In this document: one piece after another, positions 3 through 8,374 of the stretch
How positions within the stretch are numbered: position 1 is the first letter of the stretch
How the letters are laid out: the number at the start of each line of letters is the position of its first letter
Source of the DNA: a virus
DNA: 57,337 nucleotides
Strand: one strand, 5' to 3'
Virus record (IMG/VR): IMGVR_UViG_3300042402_000779
Coordinates: 1 to 57,337 of that record
The notes under the pieces: generated by a model
Told to the model about the DNA's origin: nothing
The model's database searches: none
Seen by the model: only the letters and a program-made list of their open reading frames with translations
Made by a program: the position numbers and the translations under genes

Positions 3-245
3 GACAATGTAAGTCTTGATAACTTTGCACATAACAGTTATTACACTTCTATGAGAGAATTCATTAATGAGTTACATAAGGAAGATGGTAGGGATACATT
101 TATGACATACATTAAAACAAGGAGTGGTGTACACATCATCACACAACCATTCAATACAATGAGATTCAAGGAAAGATATCCTGATGTTGATATTCAAAAG
201 AAAAATCCAACATTGCTTTATTTACCAAATAGTTTAGATATATGA
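3..245 (+). CDS. 3' end of an unrecognised phage gene (5' truncated by window edge)
   Basis: The reading frame is open from the first bases of the window to a TGA at 243-245, so only the last 80 codons are visible. A Met codon at 51 is in frame but need not be the start. The visible part is mixed charged and aromatic, with no signal peptide, membrane segment or known catalytic motif. The stop overlaps the start of the phosphoesterase gene by 4 nt (ATGA), so it belongs to the same operon as the RNA-repair-like genes that follow. I do not recognise the family; its position suggests a nucleic-acid-related job but nothing in the residues shows it. Confidence 0.6.
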   Translation, partial: DNVSLDNFAHNSYYTSMREFINELHKEDGRDTFMTYIKTRSGVHIITQPFNTMRFKERYPDVDIQKKNPTLLYLPNSLDI

Positions 246-892
246 AATTAGTTTTAGAAAAGGGTCAACGATTGTGGTTTACATCAGATACCCATTATTC
301 ACACGCAAACATTTGTTCAGCTACTACGACTTGGAAAGATGCTGATGATACGTCACGTCATTTCGATTCGATTGAAGACATGAATAACACCATCGTAAAC
401 AACATTAATGAAGTGGTTGGTGAGAATGATATTTTAATTCACTTGGGTGACTGGTCATTTGGTGGGTTTGATAAAATAGAAGAATTTAGAAATCAAATCA
501 ATTGTAAGAATATACACTTGGTATTAGGTAACCACGACCACCACATTCGTAAAAATAAAGAAAACATTCAGAGGTTATTTAATTCCATTCACGATTACTT
601 ATACCTTGACCTACGAATTCCAAATGGTAAATTCGTTGATAAGTTTTCATTTGTATGTATGCACTATCCAATTGCAAGTTGGGACAATATGAATGCTGGC
701 GTTATACATTTACATGGTCATTGCCACTTATATCTTGAACATCGTATTGCAGAAGGTAGGGCTATGGATGTCGGTATGGATGGTAACGGATTGTATCCAA
801 TTGGATTATCTGAAATCTTATCACTATTAAGTGACCGACCTATCAAGAAATTATGTTTACCTAAAGACCACCACGAAAAAAGACTATTATGA
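242..892 (+). CDS. calcineurin-like metallophosphoesterase
   Basis: 216 residues with the complete signature of the binuclear metallophosphoesterase superfamily in order: D16-x-H18, G69-D70, G96-N97-H98-D99, H141 (in MHYP) and H158-G-H160-C-H162. These residues normally bind two divalent metals and hydrolyse phosphomono- or diesters. There is no signal peptide, so it should act in the cytoplasm. The start codon overlaps the upstream stop, and the stop overlaps the kinase start by 4 nt, which implies translational coupling. Next to a P-loop kinase and an RNA ligase it is a candidate 3'-phosphatase or 2',3'-phosphodiesterase for healing RNA ends, as in the central domain of bacterial Pnkp. The fold is secure from the motifs; the substrate is inferred from neighbours. 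A general phage phosphodiesterase remains possible. Confidence 0.85.
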   Translation: MKLVLEKGQRLWFTSDTHYSHANICSATTTWKDADDTSRHFDSIEDMNNTIVNNINEVVGENDILIHLGDWSFGGFDKIEEFRNQINCKNIHLVLGNHDHHIRKNKENIQRLFNSIHDYLYLDLRIPNGKFVDKFSFVCMHYPIASWDNMNAGVIHLHGHCHLYLEHRIAEGRAMDVGMDGNGLYPIGLSEILSLLSDRPIKKLCLPKDHHEKRLL

Positions 893-1290
893 AAGAATTA
901 TTTTTATTAAGAGGAGTACCCGGTTCGGGAAAGTCAACGCTTGCTAAATCGTTGGGCGGTATTCACATGGAAGCCGACCAATACTTTATGGAAAATGGTG
1001 AGTACAAGTTTGACGCATCTAAAATTAAAAGTGCTCACGAGTATTGTCAAACACAAACACGAGCATGGATGTCTACTGATGGTACACAAGTGAACGTTGA
1101 CCGAATTGTTGTTTCGAATACATTTACCCAAGAGTGGGAGATGGAATATTACTTCAATTTGGCTAAAGAATTCGGCTATCGTGTTTATTCAATAATTGTT
1201 GAGAATAGACATGGTGGGATTAATGAACACGGATGTCCAGCGGATAAAGTAAAACAAATGTCAGACCGATTTGAAATTAAATTATGTTAG
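889..1290 (+). CDS. P-loop kinase (polynucleotide-kinase-like, AAA_33 type)
   Basis: 133 residues. A Walker A loop G-V-P-G-S-G-K15-S-T lies at residues 9-17, followed by an acidic D30 in the pattern xADQYF typical of small nucleic-acid or nucleotide kinases related to the T4 Pnk N-domain. The C-terminal stretch with HGCP and a final RFE resembles AAA_33/NEDD4BP2-type kinases. It would transfer the ATP gamma-phosphate to a 5'-OH end. The gene overlaps the phosphoesterase by 4 nt and the ligase by 7 nt, so the three are almost certainly co-expressed. No phosphatase domain is fused to it, unlike T4 Pnkp, where the phosphatase is a HAD domain. Kinase fold is secure; polynucleotide as substrate is inferred from context. 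Confidence 0.75.
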   Translation: MKELFLLRGVPGSGKSTLAKSLGGIHMEADQYFMENGEYKFDASKIKSAHEYCQTQTRAWMSTDGTQVNVDRIVVSNTFTQEWEMEYYFNLAKEFGYRVYSIIVENRHGGINEHGCPADKVKQMSDRFEIKLC

Positions 1291-2315
1291 AGTTATTAAA
1301 CAAATATCATAACGATGGTTTGTTGTACAAACAAACACATCCGACACTTCCTTTGACTATATGGAACTATACCGAGAAGGTACAATACGAAGGTTTGTGG
1401 GATGAGGTTACTTTGATGTGTCGTGGGTTGGTGACCGATTCTGAAGGTACTATTATAGCTAGACCTTTTAGGAAATTCTTTAATATGGAAGAGGGTAAAC
1501 ACGCTCCAACTTCTGAATTTGAAGTATATGAAAAAATGGATGGGTCGTTGGGTATATTCTTTTACTATGAAGGTAATCCCGTATTTGCTACCCGTGGGTC
1601 GTTTACTTCAGACCAAGCGATTAAGGGTAGAGAAATCCTAAATAAATACAATTGGCAGTACGGAACATATGAGGGTTACACTTACTTGTTCGAAATTATA
1701 TACCCTGAAAACCGAGTTGTAGTAAATTACAATGGGTTAGAAGAACTGATTGTTTTGGGTGTGATTGAAACCTCTACCGGTAAGGAATGTAAATATTCAG
1801 AAATGGAGAATGAGGGATTTGTACTCGTTAAAAAATACGATGGTATTAAAAATTACTCAACACTAAAGTCACTCATATCAAATGATGCTGAAGGATTTGT
1901 AGTTCGTTTCTCCAATGGAGACCGAATGAAAATTAAAGGTGAAGAGTATCTTCGTCTCCATAAGATTATGACCAATCTATCTACTACAGCAATATGGGAG
2001 TTGGTTTCGAGTGGTGGTAATATTGACAACATCCTTAAAGATGTTCCCGATGAGTTCTACAAGAAAGTTAAAATGTATGTAAGTAGCTTAAATTACGGAT
2101 ACTACCAATACTGGAATCAATTGGGTAAAACATATGATTACTTCAGATTTGGTAAGTATGGTGATATAGAAGTAGAACCAACCAAGAAAGAATTCGCAGA
2201 ACACATCAAAGACCATCACCCAATAGCTAAATCAATAATGTTTGCTATGTGGGATGATAAAGACTATGATAAGATAATTTGGAAAGCTTTAAAACCAAAA
2301 TTTGAAAAACTTTAA
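1284..2315 (+). CDS. T4 Rnl1-like RNA ligase
   Basis: 343 residues, close to T4 RNA ligase 1 (374). The nucleotidyl-lysine motif I is E-K84-M-D-G-S, with an upstream RGLV segment typical of Rnl1. Motif III/IIIa-like FEIIYPENR, motif IV EGFVVRF (residues 203-209) and motif V MKIK (215-218) follow in the usual order. The enzyme forms a ligase-AMP intermediate and seals 5'-phosphate to 3'-OH RNA ends. The start at 1284 overlaps the kinase stop. An intrinsic terminator begins 11 nt after the stop, so it ends the operon. Together with the upstream phosphoesterase and kinase it could repair tRNAs cut by host anticodon nucleases, as T4 Pnk and Rnl1 do. Family assignment is strong; biological target is inference. 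Confidence 0.88.
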   Translation: MLELLNKYHNDGLLYKQTHPTLPLTIWNYTEKVQYEGLWDEVTLMCRGLVTDSEGTIIARPFRKFFNMEEGKHAPTSEFEVYEKMDGSLGIFFYYEGNPVFATRGSFTSDQAIKGREILNKYNWQYGTYEGYTYLFEIIYPENRVVVNYNGLEELIVLGVIETSTGKECKYSEMENEGFVLVKKYDGIKNYSTLKSLISNDAEGFVVRFSNGDRMKIKGEEYLRLHKIMTNLSTTAIWELVSSGGNIDNILKDVPDEFYKKVKMYVSSLNYGYYQYWNQLGKTYDYFRFGKYGDIEVEPTKKEFAEHIKDHHPIAKSIMFAMWDDKDYDKIIWKALKPKFEKL

Positions 2316-2326
2316 AATAAAATGAA

Positions 2327-2354
2327 AAAGGGCTTGTATAAGTCCTTTTTTTTT
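2327..2354 (+). terminator. Rho-independent terminator after the RNA ligase
   Basis: A 9-bp stem (AAAGGGCTT with AAGTCCTTT, one G-T pair) closes a GTAT loop and runs into nine T residues. It sits 11 nt after the ligase stop, ending the RNA-repair operon. The -33-like element of the next promoter lies inside this hairpin. Confidence 0.85.
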
Positions 2355-2380: not shown

Positions 2381-3286
2381 ATGACACAATTAGGTTACTG
2401 CTGTATTAACATGACCCTTGGTAAGAACAAGATTACTACCAACCGGTCTATGATACGAAAAACATTTCTTGCCGAAGGTATTAGTAGGTCATCTGACCTT
2501 GCTCTACAAAACGCAAAAGACTTGGTAGAGATTATCAAGTGGAATCATACTAACGGATTTGGATTATTCCGTATGACCTCTGACCTTGTTCCATGGGCTA
2601 GTGAGTTTGAGCTCAATCAGATGCCAGACTATCAAAAGTTTTCCAATGTACTCAAGGGTGCAGGTACTTTGGCTAAATCATATGGCCAACGTATTACATC
2701 ACATCCTGGCCCATTCAACGTGTTGGTATCACCTAACGAGAAAGTTGTTGAGAACACCATCAAAGACCTTTCTCTACACGGAGAGCACTTTGACCTTATG
2801 GGATTAGAGAGAACTCCGTACAACCTAATTAACATACATTGTAATGGTGTGTATGGTGACAAGCAATCTGCTATGGATAGGTTTTGTAAAAACTTCGAAC
2901 GTCTGCCAGAATCAGTTCAGACTCGACTGACTGTTGAGAACGATGATAAGGCTAGTATGTATTCAGTCAAAGACCTTATGTACATCCACGAACGTATTGG
3001 TATTCCGATTGTCTTCGATTATCACCACCACACGTTTAATACAGGTGGACTGACTGAACAAGAAGCTCTCGAACTTGCTATGTCCACATGGGGTAACATC
3101 AAACCACTTGTTCATTATTCAGAGTCCAAGACCTTGGAAGACCCTACTGCTAAGCCACAAGCACACTCTGACTACATCTATTCAGAAATCAATACATATG
3201 GTCATAACCTTGACATTGACATTGAGGCTAAGATGAAAGAGCTGACTGTTTTAGATTATTTGTCTAAATTTGGTAAACACTCATAA
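2381..3286 (+). CDS. uvdE: UV damage endonuclease UvdE/UvsE
   Basis: 301 residues, the normal length for the family. It shows the family pattern along a TIM barrel: LGYCCINMTL at the N-terminus, FRMTSDLVPWAS, SHPGPFNVL (metal His), NIHCNGVYGDK (metal His), LTVENDD (metal Glu), FDYHHH (metal Asp/His), VHYSES and a late HSDYI. These supply the three-metal active site that nicks DNA 5' to pyrimidine dimers and other distortions. The product is cytoplasmic and starts alternative excision repair. T4 uses a different enzyme, the DenV glycosylase, for dimers. The gene has its own promoter just downstream of a terminator, so it is probably expressed independently of the RNA-repair operon. Identification is confident. 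Confidence 0.88.
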   Translation: MTQLGYCCINMTLGKNKITTNRSMIRKTFLAEGISRSSDLALQNAKDLVEIIKWNHTNGFGLFRMTSDLVPWASEFELNQMPDYQKFSNVLKGAGTLAKSYGQRITSHPGPFNVLVSPNEKVVENTIKDLSLHGEHFDLMGLERTPYNLINIHCNGVYGDKQSAMDRFCKNFERLPESVQTRLTVENDDKASMYSVKDLMYIHERIGIPIVFDYHHHTFNTGGLTEQEALELAMSTWGNIKPLVHYSESKTLEDPTAKPQAHSDYIYSEINTYGHNLDIDIEAKMKELTVLDYLSKFGKHS

Positions 3287-3338
3287 GGGCATAGTATGGG
3301 GAATGCTTGATAATATATCATTATTAACAATCTGCTTG

Positions 3339-3346
3339 ATATTTAT
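3339..3346 (+). promoter_or_regulatory. late-promoter-like box ATATTTAT
   Basis: Exact ATATTTAT, 110 nt upstream of the ATG at 3456, in a 169-nt gene-free stretch. No TTTG at the -33 distance. One of about fifteen copies found in leaders across the window. Confidence 0.35.
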
Positions 3347-3368
3347 GTTAGTCACAAGCAGCTTGTTT

Positions 3369-3409
3369 GCTTAAGCGTTAAGCGGTTATCATCAACTTGA
3401 TTGTGATAA
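3369..3409 (+). other. two small hairpins in the leader of the membrane protein gene
   Basis: GCTTAA-gcg-TTAAGC (3369-3383) is directly followed by TTATCA ... TGATAA (3386-3409, 12-nt loop). Neither is followed by a T run, so they do not look like terminators. They lie between the ATATTTAT box and the start at 3456. A role in mRNA stability or protein binding is possible but not shown. The rest of the 3287-3455 gap holds no convincing gene. Confidence 0.3.
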
Positions 3410-3455
3410 TAAGTACAGATTGGAAAGTTAATAAAATCAGGTTTTAGAAAAAATA

Positions 3456-4562
3456 ATGAAAAAGTTTTTAACAAGGGAAAATGGCTTTATCGTATTGATG
3501 GTTATCAGTACGTTTGCACTCGCCGGTTCAGCGGCTTATTATTCGGTATTTGGATTGAGTTCGCTCTTCGCAGGTGCTCGTACTGAAGTTATAATCATGG
3601 CTGGGGCTTTGGAGTTCTCTAAACTTATCCTTGCATCATACCTACATAATCATTGGAATAAAGCCGGTTGGATGAAATGGTATCTAACTCTCGCAGTCGG
3701 GGTTCTTATGTTAATCACATCGGCAGGTATCTATGGATTCTTAACATCAGCATATCAATCAACCGCTGATAAGTTAGGTGCTACTGACAAGTTAGTTAGT
3801 GTGGTCGAATTAAAGAAGGGTAGATTTCAAGAACAATTAACATACTACAATGATGAAAAAACTAAACTAAACGAATCAATCAATTCACTTCGTGGCGGTC
3901 TTGCTAACAATACTCAAAGTCGAGTTGATTCTCGTGGTAATGTAATAACAAGTACATCATCAGCTCAACGTAAATCATTAGAATCACAATTAACCACAGC
4001 CGTAGAACAACGAGAATCTATATCAAAAAAAATAGAAGTGTTATCAGACTCCGTTACAAGTTTGGAGTTAGAAATATTAGACCTACAAACCAATAACGAA
4101 GTAGCTGCTGAAGTAGGGCCGCTTCGCTATATGTCTGAAATAACAGGCAAACCAATGAATACCATAGTCAACTGGTTTACACTTTTGATTGTGTTTGTAT
4201 TTGACCCATTAGCCATATCGATGGTTATAGCTCTAAATAAATTAACTAAAAAGGAATCGCAAGATGACAAACTCAATATTGATGTTGATAACAATCATAC
4301 TAACGTTGTTGATAATGGGATTTCTACTATCAATACCATTGATGAAGAAGTACCACAGCCAGAAATTACAAATTCAGAACCAATCGATACAAACGGAGAA
4401 GATGCTCCGATTGAAGTTGAACAACCTAAAGTCGAAGTTAAAAAAGAAAAAGAAGAGGTAGTCTTCATACCCACGGATGATGATATTGCAAAAGAATTAT
4501 ATGGTGAGATTGACAAAGGTTTACCAAAAAAACAAACTGTACACAGATATAAACGAAAATAA
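3456..4562 (+). CDS. integral membrane protein with periplasmic or cytoplasmic coiled coil
   Basis: 368 residues. Hydrophobic helices lie at about residues 10-40, 46-68, 72-97 and 233-260. Between the third and fourth is a 110-residue heptad-rich coiled coil (about 105-215) with a Ser/Asn-rich break. The C-terminal 100 residues are acidic and then strongly basic at the very end, with no enzyme motif. The layout suggests a phage-made inner membrane protein with a large coiled-coil loop and a charged tail. I do not recognise a named family. The leader contains an ATATTTAT box and two hairpins. A role in superinfection exclusion, lysis control or membrane takeover would be guesswork. Confidence 0.75.
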   Translation: MKKFLTRENGFIVLMVISTFALAGSAAYYSVFGLSSLFAGARTEVIIMAGALEFSKLILASYLHNHWNKAGWMKWYLTLAVGVLMLITSAGIYGFLTSAYQSTADKLGATDKLVSVVELKKGRFQEQLTYYNDEKTKLNESINSLRGGLANNTQSRVDSRGNVITSTSSAQRKSLESQLTTAVEQRESISKKIEVLSDSVTSLELEILDLQTNNEVAAEVGPLRYMSEITGKPMNTIVNWFTLLIVFVFDPLAISMVIALNKLTKKESQDDKLNIDVDNNHTNVVDNGISTINTIDEEVPQPEITNSEPIDTNGEDAPIEVEQPKVEVKKEKEEVVFIPTDDDIAKELYGEIDKGLPKKQTVHRYKRK

Positions 4563-5267: not shown

Positions 5268-6050
5268 ATGATTAACTATTTTAGCGCAGAAGAATTGGTA
5301 TCGAACTACGAAAAATTCCGTTCTGTCATCAACAAAACATTCACTGGAGAAAGACTTGATGCTCTAAACAAAATGTACGACCACTTTGAGGAACGTATGA
5401 TTTACACCCCAGCATCATCTACTGAACATTTTCACAATGCTTTTCCAGGCGGCTACGTTGACCACGTTCTTCGTGTTACCAAGAACGCTCTGAAGATTTA
5501 TGACCTATACACGGAACTTGGAATGGGTCAGGGTGATTACACTCGTGAGAATGTTATATTTACAGCACTACATCACGACCTTGGTAAACTTGGTACTCCT
5601 GAAGAGGATTTGTACATCAAGAATGATTCTGAATGGCACGTAAAAAATCAAGGTAAGATTTACAAATATAATTCAAACATTCATTGGATGAATCTAACCG
5701 ATAGGACTTTTTACTTGTTGAATTATTTTGGAATTAAATGTACTCAAGAAGAGTGGATTGGTATTAAACTTACCGATGGTCTATATGATGAAAATAACAA
5801 AGAGTATTTTATCAAGTTTGATAAAGACCTTGCATTAAAAACTTCATTACCATTTGTAATGCATACTGCTGATTTATTCGCTGCTCGATTTGAAAACGAA
5901 CGATGGTTAAATGAAATGTCAGCTGAAAAGTCAACTCGTAATCCAAATGGTAGACCATCCGCAAAACCAAAACTTGCTGAAACCTTTACAAATGGTGGGT
6001 TTGGTACTACTGATGTGTTTGATGCGTTTAAAGATTTAATCGAAGACTAA
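5268..6050 (+). CDS. HD-domain phosphohydrolase
   Basis: 260 residues. The HD-superfamily metal-binding pattern is clear: H66 in GGYVDHVLRV, H102-H103-D104 in ALHHDLGKLG, and a later D in MHTADLFAAR. Such proteins hydrolyse nucleotides or cyclic nucleotides with a divalent metal. Phages use them as dNTPases, nucleotidases or defence-signal-degrading enzymes. Residues after about 225 are Pro/Gly/Asn-rich and probably flexible. It follows the ClpP-like gene by 3 nt and precedes the small membrane protein by 1 nt, so it is in the same transcription unit as the late sigma factor. The substrate cannot be told from sequence. Confidence 0.75.
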   Translation: MINYFSAEELVSNYEKFRSVINKTFTGERLDALNKMYDHFEERMIYTPASSTEHFHNAFPGGYVDHVLRVTKNALKIYDLYTELGMGQGDYTRENVIFTALHHDLGKLGTPEEDLYIKNDSEWHVKNQGKIYKYNSNIHWMNLTDRTFYLLNYFGIKCTQEEWIGIKLTDGLYDENNKEYFIKFDKDLALKTSLPFVMHTADLFAARFENERWLNEMSAEKSTRNPNGRPSAKPKLAETFTNGGFGTTDVFDAFKDLIED

Positions 6051-7054: not shown

Positions 7055-7412
7055 ACACGAAGAAATATTTAAAGGTAAAACGTTTTCTGATTTAATGAAA
7101 GATGTTTATGAGAATCAGAAAAAGAAAGACCGACAAATAAAATTATTGATAGCACAACTTGAGCCGCTCGTTAGGAATCTTAACGATGCGGCTGTTGTCG
7201 TTCCACTCATTAAGGAATATCTCGATGTATCAGTTAAGAATGACGATGCTCTTATAAAGTTAGCCGCTATCGTACAACGTATGATGAAAGACAGCGCTGT
7301 TGCTGAAACTGGTGGATTTATATTATCTGATGAAGAGAAAAAGCAGTTAATGGCTGCTATGGATGAAGTTGAAAAAGACTTACCTAAACAATCAGACGAG
7401 GATGATGAATGA
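7047..7412 (+). CDS. small acidic helical protein (possible late co-activator)
   Basis: 121 residues from the ATG at 7047. An in-frame TTG at 7035 exists, but the ATG overlaps the gp55 stop in the usual way and follows GGAG. The protein is almost entirely helical by composition, with a basic first half, and ends in a very acidic DEDDE tail. No motif is recognised. Its place directly behind gp55 and its size similar to T4 gp33 (112 residues, the polymerase flap-binding co-activator) make gp33-like function a possibility, but I see no diagnostic residues. It could equally be a tail chaperone for the baseplate genes that follow. Confidence 0.65.
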   Translation: MDRHEEIFKGKTFSDLMKDVYENQKKKDRQIKLLIAQLEPLVRNLNDAAVVVPLIKEYLDVSVKNDDALIKLAAIVQRMMKDSAVAETGGFILSDEEKKQLMAAMDEVEKDLPKQSDEDDE

Positions 7413-8374
7413 AATTAGGTACAGTACAAAAAATAAACCTAAACGATAAAGACCCGAATTTAGTAAATTCAATTACAGTATCAAGTAATTCAGGTGGAGT
7501 TGGTAGTAACATAGAGTGCTATCCGCTATCTATGAATTTTAGACAAATTCCTGTAATCGGTGAACAAGTATACATAGTTGTAGGTTCAGACGCAGCATCA
7601 TCAGCTGTTGCTAGAAAAGCCAAAAACTATTATCTATCTCCCGTATCTTTACAATTCAATGTTAATCATAATTCATTACCCAAATTAAATTACCTACAAC
7701 CTGGTACATCTGCTGGGGCAGCTATAGTACAATCTTCAGCTGGTATTCCTGCTAGAGCATCAACCGACTCTTCAGTTAACTTTGGTAATGGATTCGTTGA
7801 ATCTCCAAACGTATCTCAACTCCAAGGGTTTCTTGGTGATGTTATTTTAGAAGGTCGATTTGGTCAATCTATAAGATTTGGGTACACTCCAAGGAATGTA
7901 AAAAAAACTGACATATTGGTAGATGGTGCTACCATTGAACCAACGTGGACATCGACAACTCCTGAATCACCAATTACAATATTTAGAAATGGAGCTGGTA
8001 TCAGTCGTGGATATAATAAGTTTGTAGTAGAAGATATCAACAAAGACGATACTTCGATATGGATGACATCTGCTCAAACAGTACCTCTTAAAACTCAAAC
8101 GTTACCAATAACGACAACTCCTATTTCTTTTTACAATAAACCACAATTGTTAATTAACTCTGGTCAAGTTGTTATAAACTCCAAAACTGATAGTGTAATT
8201 TTATCATCTAATAAAGATATAGTTTTAGCTACGCCTGCTAATGCTACAACAATAGATAAAATAATTGAAGCAATAGAAATATTGGCTCAAGGATTATATC
8301 CGACAGCAGTAGGTCCGACAGGCCCACATCCAAGGATTGCCGAAATACTTTTAAAAATAAAACAAGGTTTATAA
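7409..8374 (+). CDS. baseplate hub/central spike protein, gp5/VgrG-like
   Basis: 321 residues. The N-terminal 70 residues have the OB-fold pattern of gp5/gpV-type spikes (short beta strands, then IPVIGEQVYIVVGSD). The middle has GDVILEGRFGQSIRFG and later SPITIFRNG and EDINKDDTSIWMTS, a set conserved in hub proteins of T4-like marine phages as I remember them. The end carries short strand repeats (QVVINSKTDSVILSSNKDI), as in spike beta-helices. No lysozyme domain like that of T4 gp5 is present. It overlaps the previous gene by 4 nt and opens the baseplate cluster. The structural class is likely; exact equivalence to T4 gp5 is moderate. Confidence 0.6.
   Translation: MKLGTVQKINLNDKDPNLVNSITVSSNSGGVGSNIECYPLSMNFRQIPVIGEQVYIVVGSDAASSAVARKAKNYYLSPVSLQFNVNHNSLPKLNYLQPGTSAGAAIVQSSAGIPARASTDSSVNFGNGFVESPNVSQLQGFLGDVILEGRFGQSIRFGYTPRNVKKTDILVDGATIEPTWTSTTPESPITIFRNGAGISRGYNKFVVEDINKDDTSIWMTSAQTVPLKTQTLPITTTPISFYNKPQLLINSGQVVINSKTDSVILSSNKDIVLATPANATTIDKIIEAIEILAQGLYPTAVGPTGPHPRIAEILLKIKQGL

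Follow-up and report, generated by a model that had tools for sequence, protein, structure and literature searches.

The window analyzed here, a linear 57,337-base IMG/VR virus record, opens with four closely packed genes: the 3′ end of a gene that we call UP, followed by genes for a calcineurin-type phosphoesterase (MPE), a P-loop kinase (KIN) and an Rnl1-type ATP-dependent RNA ligase (RNL) (Table 1). According to an earlier note, overlaps of 4 and 7 nt link the last three, which end at a single terminator, and the ORF coordinates, all on the plus strand, match this exactly (MPE/KIN, 889-892; KIN/RNL, 1284-1290), with a hairpin and U run after the ligase gene. The hairpin (-13.8 kcal/mol, z -4.9 relative to shuffles) is a probable operon terminator; the terminator pattern alone was found at one site, against a mean of 1.8 in shuffles. 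UP, which the earlier note overlooked, overlaps MPE by 4 nt (ATGA, 242-245), and the whole gene is carried by another contig of the same phage, L169, that is 99.7% identical to the window over 6.9 kb. Just 5′ of the operon, the L169 contig has an HSP20 gene (L169:4963-5310; PF00011, 7e-14). In the window, a UvdE-type UV endonuclease gene (2381-3286; PF03851, 1e-60) lies directly past the operon, beyond the terminator, and an HD-domain protein, a possible phosphohydrolase, is encoded further on (5268-6050; phrog_28876, 6.5e-11). A scan of all 57,337 nt found no tRNA genes, and Hen1 was not found in the first 8 kb.

Table 1. Features of the operon in the window, with the complete UP gene of contig L169.
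Feature	Coordinates	Strand	Size	Matches and remarks
UP, partial 3′ end	3..245	+		phrog_14949; truncated by contig edge
MPE, calcineurin-type phosphoesterase	242..892	+	216 aa	PF00149, phrog_547
KIN, P-loop kinase	889..1290	+	133 aa	PF13671, phrog_2071
RNL, Rnl1-type ATP-dependent RNA ligase	1284..2315	+	343 aa	PF09511, phrog_562
Hairpin and U run, probable operon terminator	2324..2351	+	12-bp stem	
UP, full length	L169:5378-6004		208 aa	phrog_14949, 8.3e-32

The three family assignments of the earlier note were borne out by profile matches and by intact catalytic motifs. RNL matches PF09511 (7.4e-17; 62.4 bits, curated cut-off 28.3), phrog_562 (7.5e-72) and the T4 Rnl1 structure 2c5u (5e-17), and it carries the nucleotidyltransferase motifs of the Rnl1 family: among 52 non-redundant homologs R47, K64, K84, E137, K216, and K218 are invariant and E203 is kept in 98%, K84 being the adenylation lysine within KMDGS (KxDGS motif). 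Its score of 74.4 bits is below the cut-off of the NCBIfam equivalog TIGR02308 (T4 RnlA family; 242.25), and RNL is therefore an Rnl1-family relative, not T4 RnlA itself. The label “RNA ligase and tail fiber protein attachment catalyst,” used by PHROG and GenBank, would allow RNL to be a tail-fibre attachment factor like T4 gp63 and the cassette to serve virion assembly, a reading that we find scarcely credible given that the catalytic residues of RNL are all conserved and that the genes constantly found near it encode end-healing enzymes, not tail components.

KIN matches PF13671 (2.2e-9), phrog_2071 (4.1e-39) and the polynucleotide kinase family phrog_505 (1.1e-6), and T4 Pnk was among the top matches in a profile search of PDB sequences (6e-4). 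Of 72 non-redundant homologs, 99% or more retain the Walker A motif G9xPGSGKST (P11, 96%), D30, R107, and R127. An AlphaFold2 model (pLDDT 83) has T4 polynucleotide kinase as its best match (Z 14.8 over 130 residues, 2.6 Å), followed by the kinase of bacterial Pnkp (Z 13.6) and by seryl-tRNA kinase, the first match outside the PNK families (Z 12.4). The predicted model thus combines a T4 Pnk-like fold with a Walker A motif and the catalytic aspartate D30, and places KIN nearer to the kinase domain of T4 Pnk than to that of bacterial Pnkp. Not every active-site residue can be paired: KIN shows no clear equivalent of Arg38 of T4 Pnk, F33 lying nearby in the sequence alignment, and R107 or R127 is a tentative candidate for the lid arginine (Arg126 in T4 Pnk). 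The motif run ADxYF...AH...NRHG...HGxP may resemble that of the kinase domain of human N4BP2. Human N4BP2 is a PNK-domain protein (PMC6598757). KIN is a single domain that ends at 133 aa and lacks the C-terminal HAD 3′-phosphatase domain of T4-type Pnkp; on the predicted fold, we propose that it is a stand-alone polynucleotide 5′-OH kinase.

MPE is a calcineurin-type metallophosphoesterase, with a PF00149 match above the cut-off (1.3e-9; 39.2 bits vs. 21.5), a phrog_547 match (3.8e-44) and a binuclear metal site; of 61 non-redundant homologs, 97% retain the metal- and phosphate-site residues D16, H18, D70, N97, H98, H141, H160, and H162. The earlier note had paired a Pnkp-style phosphatase with a T4-style ligase in separate chains; the separate chains and the Rnl1-type ligase stand, but the Pnkp-style phosphatase does not. 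Aligned to the MPE of bacterial Pnkp, the MPE profile reached an hhalign probability of only 7.5, over the GD...GNHD stretch alone and against a Pnkp profile of three sequences, while the control alignment of Pnkp MPE to PPP-like MPE reached 99.2. The GDxVDRGP signature of PPP-like enzymes is replaced by GDWSFGG. The predicted model of MPE (pLDDT 91) best matches 1xm7, aq_1665 (Z 17.7), an uncharacterized protein that is its nearest solved relative, and then LpxH (Z 12); no family of known RNA function ranked above these two in the fold search, and bacterial Pnkp MPE is absent from the match list, an absence that excludes nothing. By sequence comparison and predicted structure, then, MPE groups with aq_1665, outside the Pnkp phosphatase subfamily.

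The neighborhood survey that the earlier note had proposed found the trio conserved in relatives, so that the refuting outcome named in that note did not occur. At least 80% of the concatenated trio was recovered at one place in 82 GenBank phage records. Named phages with the trio, in various gene orders, are Justusliebigvirus phi92, Plateaulakevirus, Thalassavirus, Saclayvirus, the Pseudomonas phages NoPa and Pyxpy02, and Vibrio phage pv27. Linkage was counted over loci made non-redundant at 90% identity, within 6 kb and on the same strand. Loci anchored on MPE have KIN in 34/41 and any ligase in 30/41 (21/23 and 18/23 where full flanks are available), those anchored on KIN have MPE in 33/49 and a ligase in 40/49, and those anchored on RNL have MPE in 27/34 and KIN in 19/34. 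Phage loci share ancestry, so that these counts are inflated and do not represent independent events. A stronger argument than the counts is that linkage is kept while gene order is reshuffled: MPE-KIN-RNL, RNL-MPE-KIN, MPE-RNL-KIN, and RNL-KIN-MPE all occur in phages of Bacteroidota and Gammaproteobacteria, and in rV5 the ligase adjoins the kinase and MPE from the opposite strand. Hence, MPE, KIN, and a ligase form a conserved phage module. The kinase of Agrobacterium phage Atu_ph02 is a stand-alone gene with neither MPE nor ligase nearby.

As a control, kinase-family loci in bacterial and archaeal genomes were surveyed, and 3/80 had MPE (one) or RNL (two). These three “cellular” rows fall inside the phage clade of the kinase tree and are therefore probably viral contigs; among the neighbors of the remaining loci of this 80-locus control no repair theme was seen. 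In the same tree, the KIN of the window groups with support (95/88) in a set made up of 68 phage rows and four “bacterial” ones, 59 bacterial rows form a separate clade (100/100), and the kinases of proteobacterial phages fall elsewhere with poorly resolved placement. The idea that the KIN family is confined to RNA repair was rejected, given that its bacterial homologs are solitary genes and no repair gene recurs beside them; since its cellular members show no linkage to RNA repair, the family may have other roles as well. Bacteroidota and other bacteria with such a stand-alone homolog, repair genes not being adjacent, make up loci L190-L265.

The sealing gene of the module is exchangeable, another feature that the earlier note overlooked. 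The commonest neighbor families at KIN loci are MPE (30/46) and a second type of ligase (PF09414 with PF21189, phrog_968; 30/46), with the Rnl1 type lower down (12/46). Counted by ligase, 28/46 KIN loci have the second type, either with no Rnl1-type ligase nearby or together with one, and some ligase is present in at least 38/46. In many relatives, a PF09414-type ligase thus replaces Rnl1. Some phages have both types (L185:7708-8372 and L079-type loci), one example being Acinetobacter phage Acibel004. Interrupted ligase genes were also seen. At L079:6863-8908 (also in L075 and L077) an RNA ligase gene is split by a homing endonuclease-like ORF of 320 aa (7351-8313) that sits inside the conserved FEIIYPENRIVV stretch, and no Rfam intron was found at this interrupted gene; at L069:2665-4661 a second-type ligase is split by a GIY-YIG-like ORF (2940-3725).

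The identity of the ligases also bears on whether the cassette might mend DNA ends or nicks instead of RNA. T4 Pnk is active on DNA as well as RNA, DNA ligase genes are near in some genomes, and a UV endonuclease gene is near in this one. However, the partner ligases are RNA ligases drawn from two different families, and the UvdE gene lies beyond the operon terminator, so that we judge DNA repair very improbable.

The activity of MPE is less readily assigned than those of its partners, since the MPE superfamily spans many substrates, which counts against a 3′-healing role. The histidine of the GNHD motif permits 2′,3′-cyclic phosphodiesterase activity, as work on CthPnkp, Rv0805, and YfcE indicates, and it is common across the superfamily, making it permissive and not diagnostic. 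This histidine is present and conserved in MPE. In YfcE the motif is GNCD, while other subclasses have GNHD (PMC4320098). An alternative that we consider unlikely, though less so than DNA repair or virion assembly, is that KIN and RNL mend RNA while MPE is a counter-signalling phosphodiesterase acting on cyclic nucleotides, NAD or dinucleoside polyphosphates, and another enzyme heals the 3′ end. Calcineurin-like phosphodiesterases are among the means by which phages counter nucleotide signals (Iyer 2021, PMC7824862), and the subfamily of MPE differs from that of Pnkp. Moreover, in Flavobacterium phage immuto an MPE 71% identical to that of the window (L005:3471-4151) directly follows four tRNA genes, with KIN and RNL not nearby; this is the closest named relative of MPE. 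Against this, KIN is near the MPE subfamily in the great majority of MPE-anchored loci (34/41), and a module whose kinase lacks a phosphatase domain needs a 3′ healer. Because KIN lacks that domain, MPE is likely the enzyme that heals 3′ ends, whether 2′,3′-cyclic phosphate or 3′-phosphate.

Known repair systems share parts of this arrangement. T4 Pnkp and Rnl1 resemble it in the Rnl1-type ligase (2c5u, 5e-17) and the Pnk-fold kinase (Z 14.8), but the T4 kinase carries a HAD phosphatase domain, in place of which the phage cassette has a separate calcineurin-type enzyme. Bacterial Pnkp of the Clostridium thermocellum type, which acts with Hen1, has the same three kinds of activity and likewise a binuclear MPE, not a HAD phosphatase; it differs in that a single chain holds the kinase, then the MPE and then the ligase, whereas here there are three genes in the order MPE-KIN-RNL, and in having another MPE subfamily and another ligase type than the Rnl1 type found here. 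Pairs of bacterial Pnkp with Hen1 occur in L266, L274, and L276. The MPE subfamily, the affinity of the kinase and the ligase type led us to reject the cassette as a split bacterial Pnkp, and “Pnkp-like,” applied to MPE, denotes an analogy of role, provided that this role is correct, but no common lineage. The bacterial Pnkp1-Rnl-Hen1 complex also consists of cooperating RNA repair enzymes in separate chains, but there a HAD phosphatase is part of the kinase chain and a methyltransferase participates, unlike in the phage trio (PMC4411300). The phage family phrog_8238 (737 positions), in which kinase, MPE, and ligase are matched in successive parts, has the same three components and an Rnl1-like ligase end (4e-17); it is one fused chain, however, and its MPE part resembles the MPE of the window only weakly (0.001). 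A search of 296 genomes of the phylum Bacteroidota did not recover this fused protein; what it found was confined to bacterial Pnkp, MPEs of the PPP-like kind, and Rnl1-type ligases. In bacterial loci L275 and L280, an Rnl1-type ligase adjoins a T4-like PNK-HAD protein; thus, phage KIN and MPE would together replace PNK-HAD.

Taken as a whole, the cassette is probably a phage operon for healing and sealing RNA ends, with MPE, KIN, and RNL as its parts. A metal-independent host nuclease would cut RNA, probably in the tRNA anticodon loop, leaving a 2′,3′-cyclic phosphate or 3′-phosphate and a 5′-OH. We infer a division of labor in which MPE would remove the 3′ phosphate (the least certain step), KIN would phosphorylate the 5′-OH using ATP, and RNL would adenylate the 5′ phosphate and then seal the ends. 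Translation of the overlapping genes is probably coupled. tRNA is proposed as the target by analogy with T4, whose Pnkp and Rnl1 mend tRNA that a nuclease has cut (work cited in PMC11042736). The cassette may plausibly reverse tRNA cleavage by host defences, as the earlier note had suggested, and counter-defence would then be its purpose.

An extension of this RNA-repair operon to four genes seems doubtful, if worth considering: UP would be a primase-like nucleotidyltransferase that restores lost nucleotides ahead of sealing, and MPE would define a new subfamily of RNA 3′-end-healing enzymes (aq_1665 / phrog_547) working with any ligase that the phage happens to encode. UP was first found in 50 loci, a sample drawn with MPE, KIN and RNL as anchors, and in most of these it adjoins one of the three; it lies within 30 nt of or overlaps RNL in 18/27 adjacent pairs and MPE in 11/20. 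When loci were anchored on UP, a trio member was within 6 kb in 13/29 non-redundant loci (9/13 with full flanks), and the tie of UP is therefore looser than that of the trio. UP relatives also occur in Lak megaphages, in Cellulophaga and Tenacibaculum phages and in a crAss-like phage where a gene annotated as RNA ligase lies about 1.6 kb away; the relative in Cellulophaga phage phi17:2 has a gene for a tRNA nucleotidyltransferase next to it. D127xD129 and GxH172 of UP are invariant and D191 is kept in at least 90%, and all are still present in distant members; they recall the DxD, (S/G)xH, and later D of the archaeo-eukaryotic primase superfamily, a pattern that alone is weak evidence. Profile searches of Pfam and PDB sequences gave no match and hhalign to one PF09250 protein gave 0.2, leaving a primase assignment by profile unsupported.

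Elements of this picture are already published. Phage kinases and phosphoesterases are known to accompany RNA ligases, and the phosphatase of a few jumbo phages may be a calcineurin-like or an HD domain (Iyer et al. 2021, PMC7824862). Pseudomonas phage Adele (Pakpunavirus) encodes a putative 5′-kinase without a 3′-phosphatase domain, which with two RNA ligases could restore cleaved tRNA (PMC12846349, 2025). Both phage RNA repair and a phage kinase short of the phosphatase domain have thus been described. Pakpunavirus kinases are among the KIN matches; the 3′-end healer is unnamed in that report, while here we propose the nearby MPE. In the open-access literature we found no description of a single system in which an MPE-KIN pair is combined with interchangeable ligases.

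The proposed reading offers a function that can be tested for two large phage families, annotated merely as “phosphoesterase” and “ATPase,” and makes MPE the probable missing 3′-end healer for many phages whose kinase is short of T4’s phosphatase domain. It also presents RNA repair as modular, the healing pair being constant while the ligase is swapped. If its purpose is confirmed, the cassette would mark phages likely to be resistant to tRNA-cutting defences.
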